This document shows, one piece after another, positions 4,440 through 9,254 of a stretch of 64,000 nucleotides of DNA (its first letter is position 1; the number at the start of each line of letters is the position of its first letter). The position numbers and the translations under genes were made by a program. The notes beneath the pieces were generated by a model. The model made no database searches. It was not told where the DNA came from and was given only the letters and a program-made list of their open reading frames with translations. Source of the DNA: an uncultured Verrucomicrobiales bacterium (GTDB taxonomy: Bacteria > Verrucomicrobiota > Verrucomicrobiia > Verrucomicrobiales > Akkermansiaceae); assembly GCA_937951675.1 (NCBI GenBank), contig CALFBI010000006.1, forward strand, positions 62,001-126,000, read 5' to 3'.

Positions 4440-5000
4440 TTACTGACCTCTCCAGTTCTTCTGCGGAACATTAATAGTGTCTCCAGGAAAAACTTTGATC
4501 AACTTATGCTCCGAACGATTCATATCGTAAACAGCTTGTTTCCCGTTACGGAACACTGTTACCCGGTTCACAGCACCAAATGCAGTTGGACCTCCTGAGG
4601 CCATGACCGCTTGGAAAAGAGTCATATTCCTTTGGTAAGGACGATCTCCAGGAGCCTTAACATGCCCCCCTACGGTCACTAATTGTTGAGTGATAGTATC
4701 CGAAGAGTCTGCTATAATTTGAACTGTCGGATCTGTATAAATTTCCGCAGCTTTATAGGCGTTCTCTATTTTAACTGCTAATTGATTCACCGAGAGCCCG
4801 CTCGCCTTAAGCGTTCCAATCTGCCACATCCTGATGTGACCCGAACTAGAAACTGAATATGAAGCATTCAACCGTTGCTGTTCTGCAGCGGGAATCCCTT
4901 GAAAAGAAACCTGAATAGCTCCTCCCGATTGGATACTTTGAGCCCAAACCGATTGAACTAATACTAATAAAACAATAATGATTTTTGTCATAACTTTCAT
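4440..5000 (-). CDS. Polysaccharide export protein, Wza-like with SLBB domain
   Basis: A 186-residue secreted protein with a signal peptide (IIIVLLVLVQSVWAQ). A polysaccharide-export domain follows (about 25-105; ISVSFQG-like opening, GHIRMWQIGTLKASGLSVNQ, then YTDPTVQI), then one SLBB domain (about 105-180; VTVGGHVKAPGDRPYQRNMT, VMASGGPTAFG, FPGDTINVP). These proteins form the outer-membrane or periplasmic channel for capsule or exopolysaccharide export. At 186 residues it is much shorter than E. coli Wza (about 380) and has only one SLBB copy; short versions are usual outside Proteobacteria. I see no lipobox cysteine. The gene starts 3 bases after the wzc gene ends, a clear partner arrangement. 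Confidence 0.9.
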   Translation of the reverse strand: MKVMTKIIIVLLVLVQSVWAQSIQSGGAIQVSFQGIPAAEQQRLNASYSVSSSGHIRMWQIGTLKASGLSVNQLAVKIENAYKAAEIYTDPTVQIIADSSDTITQQLVTVGGHVKAPGDRPYQRNMTLFQAVMASGGPTAFGAVNRVTVFRNGKQAVYDMNRSEHKLIKVFPGDTINVPQKNWRGQ

Positions 5001-5003
5001 CTT

Positions 5004-7196
5004 TTAATAAATATCTTCCGAGTTTTCATTTTGAGGAACCTCTTTTAGCCCCTCATTTTTTCCCAATTTTTTATCTGCCGTTTTTTTCTTTGAAGCCGTC
5101 TGCACATCATTAGTTGGCGCATAATAAGTGTAATAACTCGTATAATACTGATACTGACTATCACTTCTCACATCAACATTATTGAGGACCACTCCGATCA
5201 CGTAACCTCCAACGTTCTCCACAGCCTGCTTCACTCGAATTAACATGTTCCGAGGTAATTTACGGTGCTGAACAACAATCATAGTCAAATCAACTTCACT
5301 AGAAATCACCGAGGCATCACTCACTCCTAAAATAGGAGGTGAATCAACTAAGACGAGGTCGAATCTTTGTTTTACATCTTGAATCAACTCAGTCATCCGA
5401 CGTGAATTCAAGATTCCAGCCGCGTCTGCCGGCAAGACCCCGGACGGCAAGAAAAAGAGATTTTCTACAGAAGTCTGTAAAATCACATCTTCCAACAAAA
5501 GGTCGGTCGTCAAATAATTAGTCAAACCAACCGTATTCGTAATATCAAAAAAGGTATGTAACCGAGGACGACGTAAATCAGCATCAATCATCAAAGTCGT
5601 ATAGCCTCCTTGAGCGCATACATACGCTAAATTCACCATCGTAGTCGACTTCCCTTCACCTGCCCCACCCGATACAACGGTAATGGCATTGTCATCCGGG
5701 TTCTTACGATTGAATTCAATATTTGTTCGTAAAATTCGGTAAGCCTCGGCATCAGGGCTCGCGCCACTCTGCTTATGCAAAAGACCCACATCTTTAGGGA
5801 TAACAGCAAGAACAGGAACTTTAAGGAACTTCTCCACATCTTCGAGGCTTTTCACTGACGTATCGAGAATTTCAAGCGCAAAGGCGATGACCAGCCCGAA
5901 AAGTAGGCCAACTACTGAACCTAGAACCAGGTTTAATTTAATGTTAGGGCTTACCGGAGATTTTCCTACTTTTGGATACTCATGAATCTCAATAGGATTT
6001 TTGGGCTGTCCAATAGAGATTTTTTTTGTGGTATACTCCAGGCGCATATTTTGAAGCACTGCTTTTGCCTCAGAATGATCTTGCCTTGCTTGGTTATATT
6101 CATGCGCTGACAGAGACGTTTCGACTGCATCATCACGCTTCTCGTTAACCACCTGCTGCATCGACTCTAGACGTTTCCCTGTAAGATCCAGCTTCGTTTT
6201 TAAAATCTCTTTCAATGAATCTACAGACGAATAAAGGTCAGCATGTAGTCCTTCTGACATTTTACGGATGCGTATCGTATCGGGGTGTCTTCTCCCCAAG
6301 CCTGAAGCTTTCATCCCCTCTAGATTCCGAACCGCATTTTGGTATTCTTCGTATAATCTGGGCACTCCATTATCAGGAAGCTGAAGTCCTGCCGCATACT
6401 TCATCAATTCCTCATTTTTAAATTTATTCAGCGTAACAACTTGAGTCTCCAACTGACGCTTCTCGTTTTCGAGTTCAAATAAGAGATTTCGCGAAGTCCC
6501 ATATTCGGCATTTTCAGGCTGCCCTGGCCCCCCATCTCCTCGGAACGTTTCGGTTAAGGGAACATTTGTAGCTCTTACTAAGGTGTCTAAGACCTTACGT
6601 TTCTCTTCGACCCGGTCTTGCTGATTACGAAGTTCATTATCAAGAGCTTGAAGGGCTTTTTCAGCCCGATTGATTTCGTCAGAGTTTCGACGCTTCGCAT
6701 ATTGATTTGTAATTTCTTCCGCAATGCTTTTAGCTTCTTCTTTTTCGGTATGCGTGACCTTAATTTTAATGAGATCAGTTTGCCTCTTCGCCTCAGTTGA
6801 AACAATACTCTTTAAGGTCGAGATAACTTGATCGAAATCTTTTTCCCAAACTGTTTGTAAATTCAAGCGCTCACTGACGAGCTTGAGTGTCTCTTCTGAT
6901 TTAATAACCTCATATTCTGTTTCAAAAAACTTACGGCTCTGGATCGCTCCAATTTGGAATTGATTGCCTGATTTATTGAAAGGGTCAATTTGCATCCTAC
7001 TAGGTAGGACCTGAACTAGGGCCTCACTCGAATACTTCTTAGGCATCACATACGTAATGATTACCGAAGCTAAAAATACGAGCAGAAGAGTGAGAAGCAC
7101 GATCCCATACCTATTCTTTAAAACCTGAATATAATCGATACTTGGTGCATCAGATGCGTTATCAGACTGCTGTTTGAAATCAAAATCTTTATCCAT
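5004..7196 (-). CDS. Polysaccharide co-polymerase / tyrosine autokinase, Wzc type
   Basis: A 730-residue inner-membrane protein that couples polysaccharide chain length and export to tyrosine phosphorylation. From the chosen start at 7196 (MDKDFDFKQQ) it has a first membrane segment (about 35-55), a Wzz domain, a long periplasmic coiled coil (about 180-400), a second membrane segment near 430-450, and a BY-kinase domain. The kinase shows Walker A GGAGEGKST (near 512), Walker A' LMIDADLRRPR (near 537) and Walker B LVLVDSPP. A tyrosine cluster (YQYYTSYYTYY) near the C-terminus is the likely autophosphorylation tail. An in-frame ATG at 7244 would add 16 residues, but those codons lie within a strong hairpin, so 7196 is preferred. 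It is the kinase partner of the adjacent Wza-like protein. Confidence 0.93.
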   Translation of the reverse strand: MDKDFDFKQQSDNASDAPSIDYIQVLKNRYGIVLLTLLLVFLASVIITYVMPKKYSSEALVQVLPSRMQIDPFNKSGNQFQIGAIQSRKFFETEYEVIKSEETLKLVSERLNLQTVWEKDFDQVISTLKSIVSTEAKRQTDLIKIKVTHTEKEEAKSIAEEITNQYAKRRNSDEINRAEKALQALDNELRNQQDRVEEKRKVLDTLVRATNVPLTETFRGDGGPGQPENAEYGTSRNLLFELENEKRQLETQVVTLNKFKNEELMKYAAGLQLPDNGVPRLYEEYQNAVRNLEGMKASGLGRRHPDTIRIRKMSEGLHADLYSSVDSLKEILKTKLDLTGKRLESMQQVVNEKRDDAVETSLSAHEYNQARQDHSEAKAVLQNMRLEYTTKKISIGQPKNPIEIHEYPKVGKSPVSPNIKLNLVLGSVVGLLFGLVIAFALEILDTSVKSLEDVEKFLKVPVLAVIPKDVGLLHKQSGASPDAEAYRILRTNIEFNRKNPDDNAITVVSGGAGEGKSTTMVNLAYVCAQGGYTTLMIDADLRRPRLHTFFDITNTVGLTNYLTTDLLLEDVILQTSVENLFFLPSGVLPADAAGILNSRRMTELIQDVKQRFDLVLVDSPPILGVSDASVISSEVDLTMIVVQHRKLPRNMLIRVKQAVENVGGYVIGVVLNNVDVRSDSQYQYYTSYYTYYAPTNDVQTASKKKTADKKLGKNEGLKEVPQNENSEDIY

Positions 7197-7232
7197 AAAA
7201 AAAGCTCTGTGTTGTAGAGACAACACAGAGCT
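7197..7232 (-). terminator. Intrinsic terminator or attenuator directly before the wzc start
   Basis: A perfect 13-bp stem (AGCTCTGTGTTGT at 7203-7215 with its complement at 7220-7232, 4-base loop) is followed on the minus strand by seven T residues and then at once by the ATG of wzc at 7196. It lies 24 bases after the stop codon of the beta-barrel gene. By form it is a textbook Rho-independent terminator, and it must lower or condition transcription of wzc, wza and the genes after them. Confidence 0.85.
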
Positions 7233-7255
7233 AATAAAGTTCAATAATAATCTAC

Positions 7256-8551
7256 TTAAAAAGTAGAAGTAAGACCGAGTGTAACACGAGTTCTGTCATA
7301 TTCACGAACTTCCGCATCACCATCAGGATCTGACATGGTGAAGTTCACAGAAGCGTTTGCTGAAACGTTATCTGTAAGAGCATAAGAAAGCCCTGCATTC
7401 ACACTGTAGATAATTTCATCATATGACGAAGGTCCTGAAGATGCGCCTGGAGCGAGACTCTGAGCATCATCATAACTAGAGTAAATGACATTACCTCCAG
7501 CAAACAAAGCAACTTTCGGAGAAAGCTGGTAGTTTCCTTGTAAACCTACACGAAGAGTTTGGCGCTCATTGAACACAGTCCCTTCGAAATTACCTGCTGC
7601 GAGGTCAGCGGCGCTATGAGTATAAACGGTCGTGTTGAAACCTTCGATTCCATAACGAACAAAGCTACGCAAACCGAACTGTTCATTGACTTGGCTTCTA
7701 AGTGCTGCCTCAACGTATGGAGCAGTGCTTCCACTCCCATTATCAGGATCAAACACTTGAACTCCCCCACGGAAAACTCCTACTGTGTTTGGAGAGAAGC
7801 GGTGCTCTAAACCTCCAGTGATATAATGAGAATTTGAATCCCCACCCGTTTCACGATCTGTGATTCCGTAGCGATAACTTGCGGTCAAAACAGTCGCTGG
7901 GCTGACCCGGTAACGGAACTGATTGTAGAATGAATAAGTATTGTAATCAGATCCATCGATGTCGTCATAAATAACACCTGACGCTCTCACACCTGAAATC
8001 GTCCCAAGACGCTCGGTCCAACGATAACCTAAGCTATTGTCGGTCGACCAACGGAAATAATTTCCAGAACGAACATCTTGAGTTCCTGGGGAATCGAAAT
8101 CCGTATCGAACGAATAAGCGAGGTAATTACGACTACTGAAACGAAGACGCTCAGAAATACGATTGGTCCAATTAAGTCCGGCGCTAATCTGAGGAAACAG
8201 ATTATCACTTTCATTGGTGCTAGTCCCTGTAAGGTTCGTGCTTTCCACCTCATCAAGGTAGTAAGTAACTCCTACGCGAGCCCAAGCCTCGAGAGTGGTG
8301 CGAGGTGTCACATAAGCGTAGCTCCCCTGAATAAAAGCGGAAACGAAAAGCGAATCTTCTTCACCAAAAATCTCAGAACCTAAAGGAGCTGAATTCGAAT
8401 CATAACCCACCGAAACACCGGCAAGCCACTGAATCGGAGAGCTTTCGGAAGCATCTTCATCAGTTGGTGCGATATCATACAAGCTTTGCGCAAGAGCGAA
8501 GCTCGAAAGAGCTGCTGACGCTAAAGTAATACGTGAAAAATATTTATTCAT
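7256..8551 (-). CDS. Outer-membrane beta-barrel protein of the polysaccharide export cluster
   Basis: A 431-residue protein starting MNKYFSRITL with a signal peptide (ASAALSSFALAQ). The rest is alternating short beta strands with aromatic girdle residues, such as FRYRVSPATVLTASYRYG, and it ends in TRVTLGLTSTF with a C-terminal Phe, the usual signal for BAM-dependent insertion. It resembles beta-barrel porin families (BBP2-like) often found with Wza/Wzc-type exporters. It probably takes part in polysaccharide passage or anchoring. An upstream in-frame ATG at 8695 would overlap the preceding gene, and only the start at 8551 gives a signal peptide. The terminator-like hairpin at 7197-7232 follows it. 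Confidence 0.85.
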   Translation of the reverse strand: MNKYFSRITLASAALSSFALAQSLYDIAPTDEDASESSPIQWLAGVSVGYDSNSAPLGSEIFGEEDSLFVSAFIQGSYAYVTPRTTLEAWARVGVTYYLDEVESTNLTGTSTNESDNLFPQISAGLNWTNRISERLRFSSRNYLAYSFDTDFDSPGTQDVRSGNYFRWSTDNSLGYRWTERLGTISGVRASGVIYDDIDGSDYNTYSFYNQFRYRVSPATVLTASYRYGITDRETGGDSNSHYITGGLEHRFSPNTVGVFRGGVQVFDPDNGSGSTAPYVEAALRSQVNEQFGLRSFVRYGIEGFNTTVYTHSAADLAAGNFEGTVFNERQTLRVGLQGNYQLSPKVALFAGGNVIYSSYDDAQSLAPGASSGPSSYDEIIYSVNAGLSYALTDNVSANASVNFTMSDPDGDAEVREYDRTRVTLGLTSTF

Positions 8552-8570: not shown

Positions 8571-9161
8571 TTAGTTAGAAACACTTCCTCCTGGAGTCGC
8601 CTCTTCAAGAGTAACAGTGATAGGGATTTCAGGATCTTCTCCGAACGAAAGGATGTTCCCCGTTCCAAGACCGCCATCAACACCAGGGCCATCAAGAGGA
8701 CTAGGGACTTCTTCTGTTCCAGGTGAAGCAGGACCTACTTCGCCACCTTTATCTAAACCACCTTTAGCACTGTAGGACTCCCCAGCACCCGGATCAAGCT
8801 CAGCAAGAACCTTCTGAACTTCAACTACCGCATCAGGAGCAACCGCAACGGCGCACTGAGCAACAACTCTCATTTGGTCTGGAGCAGCAAGACTCGCTGT
8901 CCGAACGATTTCACCAACAAGTTTTTTATCGGCCTCTGTAGACACGATGGCCGCCTTTACGATTTCGCAAGCGCAAGACTCATTGGCAGCAACCAATGCT
9001 TCAACCTTTTCAAGAACAAGTGATGGTTGAGCAGCTAAAGCCGACTTCAAAGTTGAAGACAACTTCAAACAATCCGGGGTTTCAACTTGCTCACCGTAAG
9101 CAACTGAAGCAGACACAGCTGCTGCAGAAACAACAGCTAACGCAGTTTTTTTTAGTTTCAT
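8571..9161 (-). CDS. Secreted protein of unknown function
   Basis: A 196-residue protein with a clear signal peptide (MKLKKTALAVVSAAAVSASV, cleavage probably after AYG). The mature part has Ala/Val-rich helices with four cysteines (one in PDCLKL, two in ESCACEIVK, one in AQCAVAV). A low-complexity Gly/Pro/Glu C-terminus follows. I do not recognise a domain. It lies 19 bases before the beta-barrel gene and just after tRNA-Gly, so it may be made with the export system. The ATG at 9161 has no good Shine-Dalgarno sequence, as with many genes here. Confidence 0.75.
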   Translation of the reverse strand: MKLKKTALAVVSAAAVSASVAYGEQVETPDCLKLSSTLKSALAAQPSLVLEKVEALVAANESCACEIVKAAIVSTEADKKLVGEIVRTASLAAPDQMRVVAQCAVAVAPDAVVEVQKVLAELDPGAGESYSAKGGLDKGGEVGPASPGTEEVPSPLDGPGVDGGLGTGNILSFGEDPEIPITVTLEEATPGGSVSN

Positions 9162-9180: not shown

Positions 9181-9254
9181 TGGAGCGGGTAGGGGGAATC
9201 GAACCCCCCTGGCCAGCTTGGAAGGCTGGAGCATTACCACTATGCTATACCCGC
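9181..9254 (-). tRNA. tRNA-Gly(TCC)
   Basis: On the minus strand the sequence begins GCGGGTA and ends TACCCGC-TCCA, giving a 7-bp acceptor stem with an encoded CCA. The anticodon arm is CCAGC-CTTCCAA-GCTGG, so the anticodon is TCC. The T-arm contains GGTTCGATTCC. Length is 74. The 3' end is only 19 bases upstream of the ATG at 9161, with no terminator between them. Confidence 0.97.

Follow-up and report, generated by a model that had tools for sequence, protein, structure and literature searches.

A predicted intrinsic terminator at a conserved boundary ahead of wzc in Akkermansiaceae, adjoining the start codon in a compact genome

The locus lies on the minus strand of a 64,000-nt stretch of DNA (hereafter the window) from an uncultured Verrucomicrobiales bacterium of the Akkermansiaceae. 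In the direction of transcription, a tRNA-Gly(TCC) gene, a gene for a small secreted protein and an outer-membrane beta-barrel-like gene are followed by a hairpin, beyond which are the wzc, wza, PDZ and protease genes. The small secreted protein (8571-9161, minus strand) has 196 residues and a signal-peptide-like N-terminus. The beta-barrel gene occupies positions 7256-8551 of the minus strand; it probably starts with the ATG near 8551, the ORF as listed extending to 8695 from a TTG. On the other side of the hairpin, the wzc-like gene (5004-7196, minus strand) codes for a 730-residue polysaccharide co-polymerase/tyrosine autokinase with Wzz and BY-kinase domains (PF02706, TIGR01007). Downstream of it, the wza-like gene (4440-5000, minus strand) codes for a polysaccharide export protein with matches to the Poly_export and SLBB domains, and genes for a PDZ protein and a tail-specific S41 protease come further downstream. 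These matches bear out the initial annotation, which had labelled the genes as coding for a tyrosine kinase (Wzc), a Wza-like SLBB export protein, a PDZ protein and an S41 protease.

The tRNA-Gly(TCC) gene at the head of the block (9181-9254, minus strand) is found upstream of it in 63 of the 64 related loci that extend far enough in this direction. Only 20 nt separate it from the gene of the secreted protein, which itself precedes the beta-barrel gene in 63 of 78 loci. This short distance and the wide conservation suggest a possible conserved tRNA-mRNA transcript. In four loci (L091, L092, L094 and L106), a second tRNA gene, tRNA-Gly(CCC), lies about 150-250 nt upstream of tRNA-Gly(TCC), on the other strand.

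The hairpin begins 23 nt after the stop codon of the beta-barrel gene (7258-7256) and spans positions 7203-7232 of the minus strand. Read from 7232 to 7203, it consists of AGCTCTGTGTTGT-CTCT-ACAACACAGAGCT, with 13 perfect pairs, six of which are G-C, and a loop of 4 nt. A tract of seven T (7197-7203, minus strand) follows directly; its first T is the last base of the stem (7203), paired with A7232, and its last adjoins the wzc ATG (7194-7196, minus strand). The 13-bp perfect stem with seven T reaching the base before the wzc ATG is thus present as initially described. The 7262-7190 segment has a folding energy of -20.6 kcal/mol, compared with -9.9 +/- 2.6 for its shuffled versions (z = -4.10), and none of 200 shuffles equalled it. 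Within this segment, there is no competing fold of similar energy, and a single hairpin dominates. An Rfam search gave no match for the site.

The 2.05-Mb genome contains a single copy of the hairpin sequence, which rules out a repeat or mobile hairpin. To place it among the other terminators of this genome, we used 246 kb of one contig (C6), including the window, with crude gene calls. It ranks among the strongest of the 17 intergenic terminator-like sites of this region. Another strong, GC-rich hairpin of 13 bp with terminator-like features is present in the window at 15645-15616 on the minus strand. The wzc hairpin resembles the ordinary Rho-independent terminators of the genome by its GC-containing perfect stem, its 4-nt loop, its seven T and its location about 23 nt past a stop codon. 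It differs from them in that the spacer to the next start is missing: the distance is 6 nt, whereas for the other terminators facing co-directional genes it is at least 24 nt (24-329 nt in the 246 kb).

The beta-barrel and wzc orthologs are adjacent, with the former preceding the latter, in most Akkermansiaceae genomes and in several genomes from sister families. We collected 105 non-duplicate intergenic regions between these two genes from Akkermansiaceae and sister families, all mutually related and selected for the adjacency of the two genes. For 92 of these regions, none of 60 dinucleotide shuffles gave a hairpin as good as the best terminator-like one, which in most cases starts 16-70 nt past the stop codon of the barrel gene. 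The search for the same hairpin in related genomes that was initially called for thus returned a terminator between the same two genes in most loci, and the proposed division between the secreted and beta-barrel genes on one side and the wzc-wza-PDZ-protease genes on the other is conserved across the family.

Changes on both sides of the stem were found at all 12 modelled pairs in an alignment of 36 of these sequences, which were additionally chosen for strong hairpins. In this alignment, 95.9% of the cells are paired, as compared with 74.7% in shuffled alignments and 39-49% in slid registers, and none of 500 shuffles attains any of the observed covariation measures. These figures are inflated, because the sequences are related and were picked for strong hairpins. 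Nevertheless, position, T tract and covariation agree, so that chance is untenable as an explanation; it is ruled out by the shuffle folding, the recurrence in relatives and the compensatory changes. The site therefore has the sequence-level features of an intrinsic terminator, namely a stable stem-loop that runs directly into a T-rich tract, with compensatory changes in the stem, in agreement with its initial description as terminator-like. As the relatives have a stop signal at the corresponding position between these genes, we regard it, on the basis of these comparisons, as an ordinary gene-boundary signal, i.e. a conserved intrinsic terminator of a known kind at an operon boundary.

Part of the stem is also conserved in sequence. 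Its core, CCCGCAATG...CATTGCGGG, was found exactly once in each of 66 of 254 family genomes, and it sits just before wzc wherever coordinates were compared. It is kept between genera despite diverged flanks, which exceeds the sequence conservation needed by a plain terminator. Among the 260 family genomes searched, there was no closer relative of the genus of the window.

The contact between the hairpin and the ATG is rare. Only three genomes have 11 nt or less between the two, that of the window (6 nt) and those of two relatives, G017 (6 nt) and G005 (11 nt). In the other relatives this distance is 27-263 nt, mostly 40-85 nt (with a usual spacer of about 40-130 nt). The three genomes are compact (1.8-2.05 Mb), and the entire intergenic region between the barrel gene and wzc measures 59-65 nt in them, compared with the usual 110-160 nt. 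Because the relatives keep a spacer and only these three compact genomes are devoid of it, the contact is best read as a product of genome compaction, not as a conserved feature. The loci thus form a natural series of spacers from about 130 nt to zero, in which one can ask what becomes of gene expression when compaction leaves no gap from terminator to start codon in a bacterium poor in Shine-Dalgarno (SD) sites.

The initial annotation had interpreted this contact as a translation-linked anti-termination switch, in which ribosomes starting at an in-frame ATG at 7244 would translate through the hairpin and thereby let RNA polymerase pass. The codon at 7244-7242 (minus strand) is in fact a TTG devoid of an SD site; it is part of a TTGAAC stretch common to the window and the compact relative G005, and its use as a start is not supported. 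No in-frame ATG occurs upstream of the wzc start from 7244 to 7196, nor further upstream as far as the stop codon of this frame. As the proposal needs, no stop codon interrupts this frame in the window between 7244 and the wzc ATG, but the probability of this happening by chance over such a short stretch is 0.56. Of the 92 loci, 77 have a stop codon that closes the wzc frame within the hairpin or downstream of it; this stop is located between the hairpin and the ATG in 68 loci and inside the hairpin in nine more, including those of G005 and G017. The 15 loci with an open frame are fewer than chance would give (about 26). Only two of the 92 loci, the window and one other, have an in-frame start codon on the 5' side of the hairpin, a TTG in both cases. 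Moreover, the Wzc proteins of the relatives align from the ATG that follows the hairpin, with no N-terminal extension, and the N-terminus of the window protein matches theirs from this ATG. The conserved ORF that characterizes leader-peptide-type attenuators, which enters the hairpin from a start codon of its own, is thus missing. We reject translation through the hairpin on the basis of these frames, and consider the switch extremely improbable. The suggested new switch gives way to a well-supported, covarying terminator at a conserved boundary of a polysaccharide-export operon in Akkermansiaceae; the interest that remains is mechanistic, namely how wzc is transcribed with no spacer.

Initiation of translation next to the U-tract is not in itself an obstacle. 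Of 215 genes in the 246 kb of contig that include the window, only 20 have a strong SD site ahead of them, and such sites are no more common there than at random positions, in keeping with the description of Akkermansia as 'SD-scarce' (PMC10783764). SD sites being hardly used in this genome, a start codon directly against the U-tract is acceptable. The AGAG in the 3' arm of the stem, 8 nt before the ATG, was considered as a hidden SD site and dropped, as the genome shows no SD enrichment.

Transcription of wzc could start at a promoter of its own overlapping the terminator, which would make wzc an independent, near-leaderless unit. Several observations in relatives point this way. Groups of relatives have promoter-like pairs at a fixed distance between the T tract and the ATG: in 11 loci, the pair is approximately CTGGAA-N17-xAxAxT, 7 nt from the ATG; other relatives have TTGATT-N16-TACACT or TAAAAT about 20 nt before the ATG, several of them with p <= 0.02, and in G005 a TTGTCA-N18-TATTAT pair lies over the hairpin (p = 0.01). 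The scarcity of SD sites is also compatible with leaderless starts. Against this, over the 87 testable loci the mean sigma70 score is 4.68, compared with 4.39 for shuffled sequences, whose highest mean reaches 4.99. That all relatives have a generic sigma70 promoter in the spacer is thus not supported overall, the position-conserved pairs being found in subgroups. As the overall score does not exceed that of the shuffles, a separate wzc promoter in relatives is plausible for subgroups only; as promoter-like pairs are nonetheless present in part of the relatives, the ancestral wzc transcription unit may have had its own promoter. In the window, no sigma70-type promoter above shuffle level was found within 110 nt upstream of the wzc ATG, the best candidates (p = 0.43) being upstream of the whole hairpin or such that transcription would start inside wzc. 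A non-sigma70 promoter overlapping the hairpin is conceivable. Our search of the literature on Akkermansia transcription start sites and on the export operon yielded nothing usable. On balance, a separate promoter for wzc appears possible, if rather doubtful. In a variant that we find unlikely, a merged element in the reduced Akkermansiaceae would both stop the upstream transcripts and, through a promoter lying within the hairpin, initiate a leaderless wzc mRNA, with upstream transcription competing directly with wzc initiation.

The window offers no space for a promoter between the terminator and wzc, and no candidate exceeds shuffle level over the hairpin or upstream of it, which makes read-through of the upstream transcript the simplest remaining supply of wzc mRNA. 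We thus propose that the hairpin serves the upstream block as its intrinsic terminator, that the spacer was lost and that wzc is probably fed by a minority of read-through transcripts. An old family boundary would have separated the barrel gene from the wzc-wza-PDZ-protease genes, with the hairpin ending the transcripts of the tRNA-Gly, secreted protein and beta-barrel genes; loss of the spacer in a compact genome would then have brought the T tract against the wzc ATG. Most transcripts of the upstream genes would stop at the hairpin, and the minority that reads through would supply wzc, lowering the dose of the inner-membrane kinase and of the export genes. On such transcripts, translation would begin at the ATG with no SD site, as is usual for this genome. 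Nevertheless, a 13-bp stem followed by U7 should terminate efficiently, leaving little read-through for an operon that the cell keeps. The strength of the hairpin counts against generous read-through, and our confidence in this proposal is therefore only moderate.

Internal intrinsic terminators that set stoichiometry are known in ABC-importer operons (PMC9045158). In its gene order, the wzc locus fits such an arrangement: as in the importer operons, the hairpin follows a gene for an exported protein and precedes the genes of its inner-membrane partners. However, termination efficiency was measured for the importers, whereas the present comparison is drawn from sequence; the stoichiometric terminators tend toward poorer U-tracts (PMC9045158); and in the relatives the genes that flank the wzc hairpin may not share one promoter. 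A stem-loop attenuator after wzc is on record for the colanic acid cluster of E. coli and predicted for the cps clusters of Klebsiella (PMC2516531, PMC3438125). There too, an intrinsic terminator splits a polysaccharide assembly cluster beside wzc, but it is located after wzc and before other cps genes, and not before wzc as it is here. A further difference is that no JUMPStart/ops element was identified at the present locus, although no defined motif was used.

RfaH-type factors are known for polysaccharide operons. A NusG paralog of this type (RfaH/LoaP-like) might relieve termination ahead of the export genes at times of polysaccharide synthesis. The genome does code for a second NusG-domain protein, of 181 residues, on another contig, directly upstream of genes for a nucleotide-sugar epimerase/dehydratase and a WecG-type glycosyltransferase, and G005 and G017 harbour two NusG proteins each. 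However, G027 and G016, which have just one NusG each, also retain the terminator, and no ops-like recruitment element was identified, again with no defined motif. Antitermination of this kind thus seems very unlikely at the wzc hairpin. The paralog gene itself (L173:8945-9490, minus strand, on contig C4 of the genome of the window) is followed by genes for an epimerase, a GDP-mannose-dehydratase-like protein, a cytidylyltransferase, the WecG glycosyltransferase, an APS kinase and a PAPS reductase. This setting is reminiscent of RfaH and LoaP, and the polysaccharide concerned may be a sulfated one.
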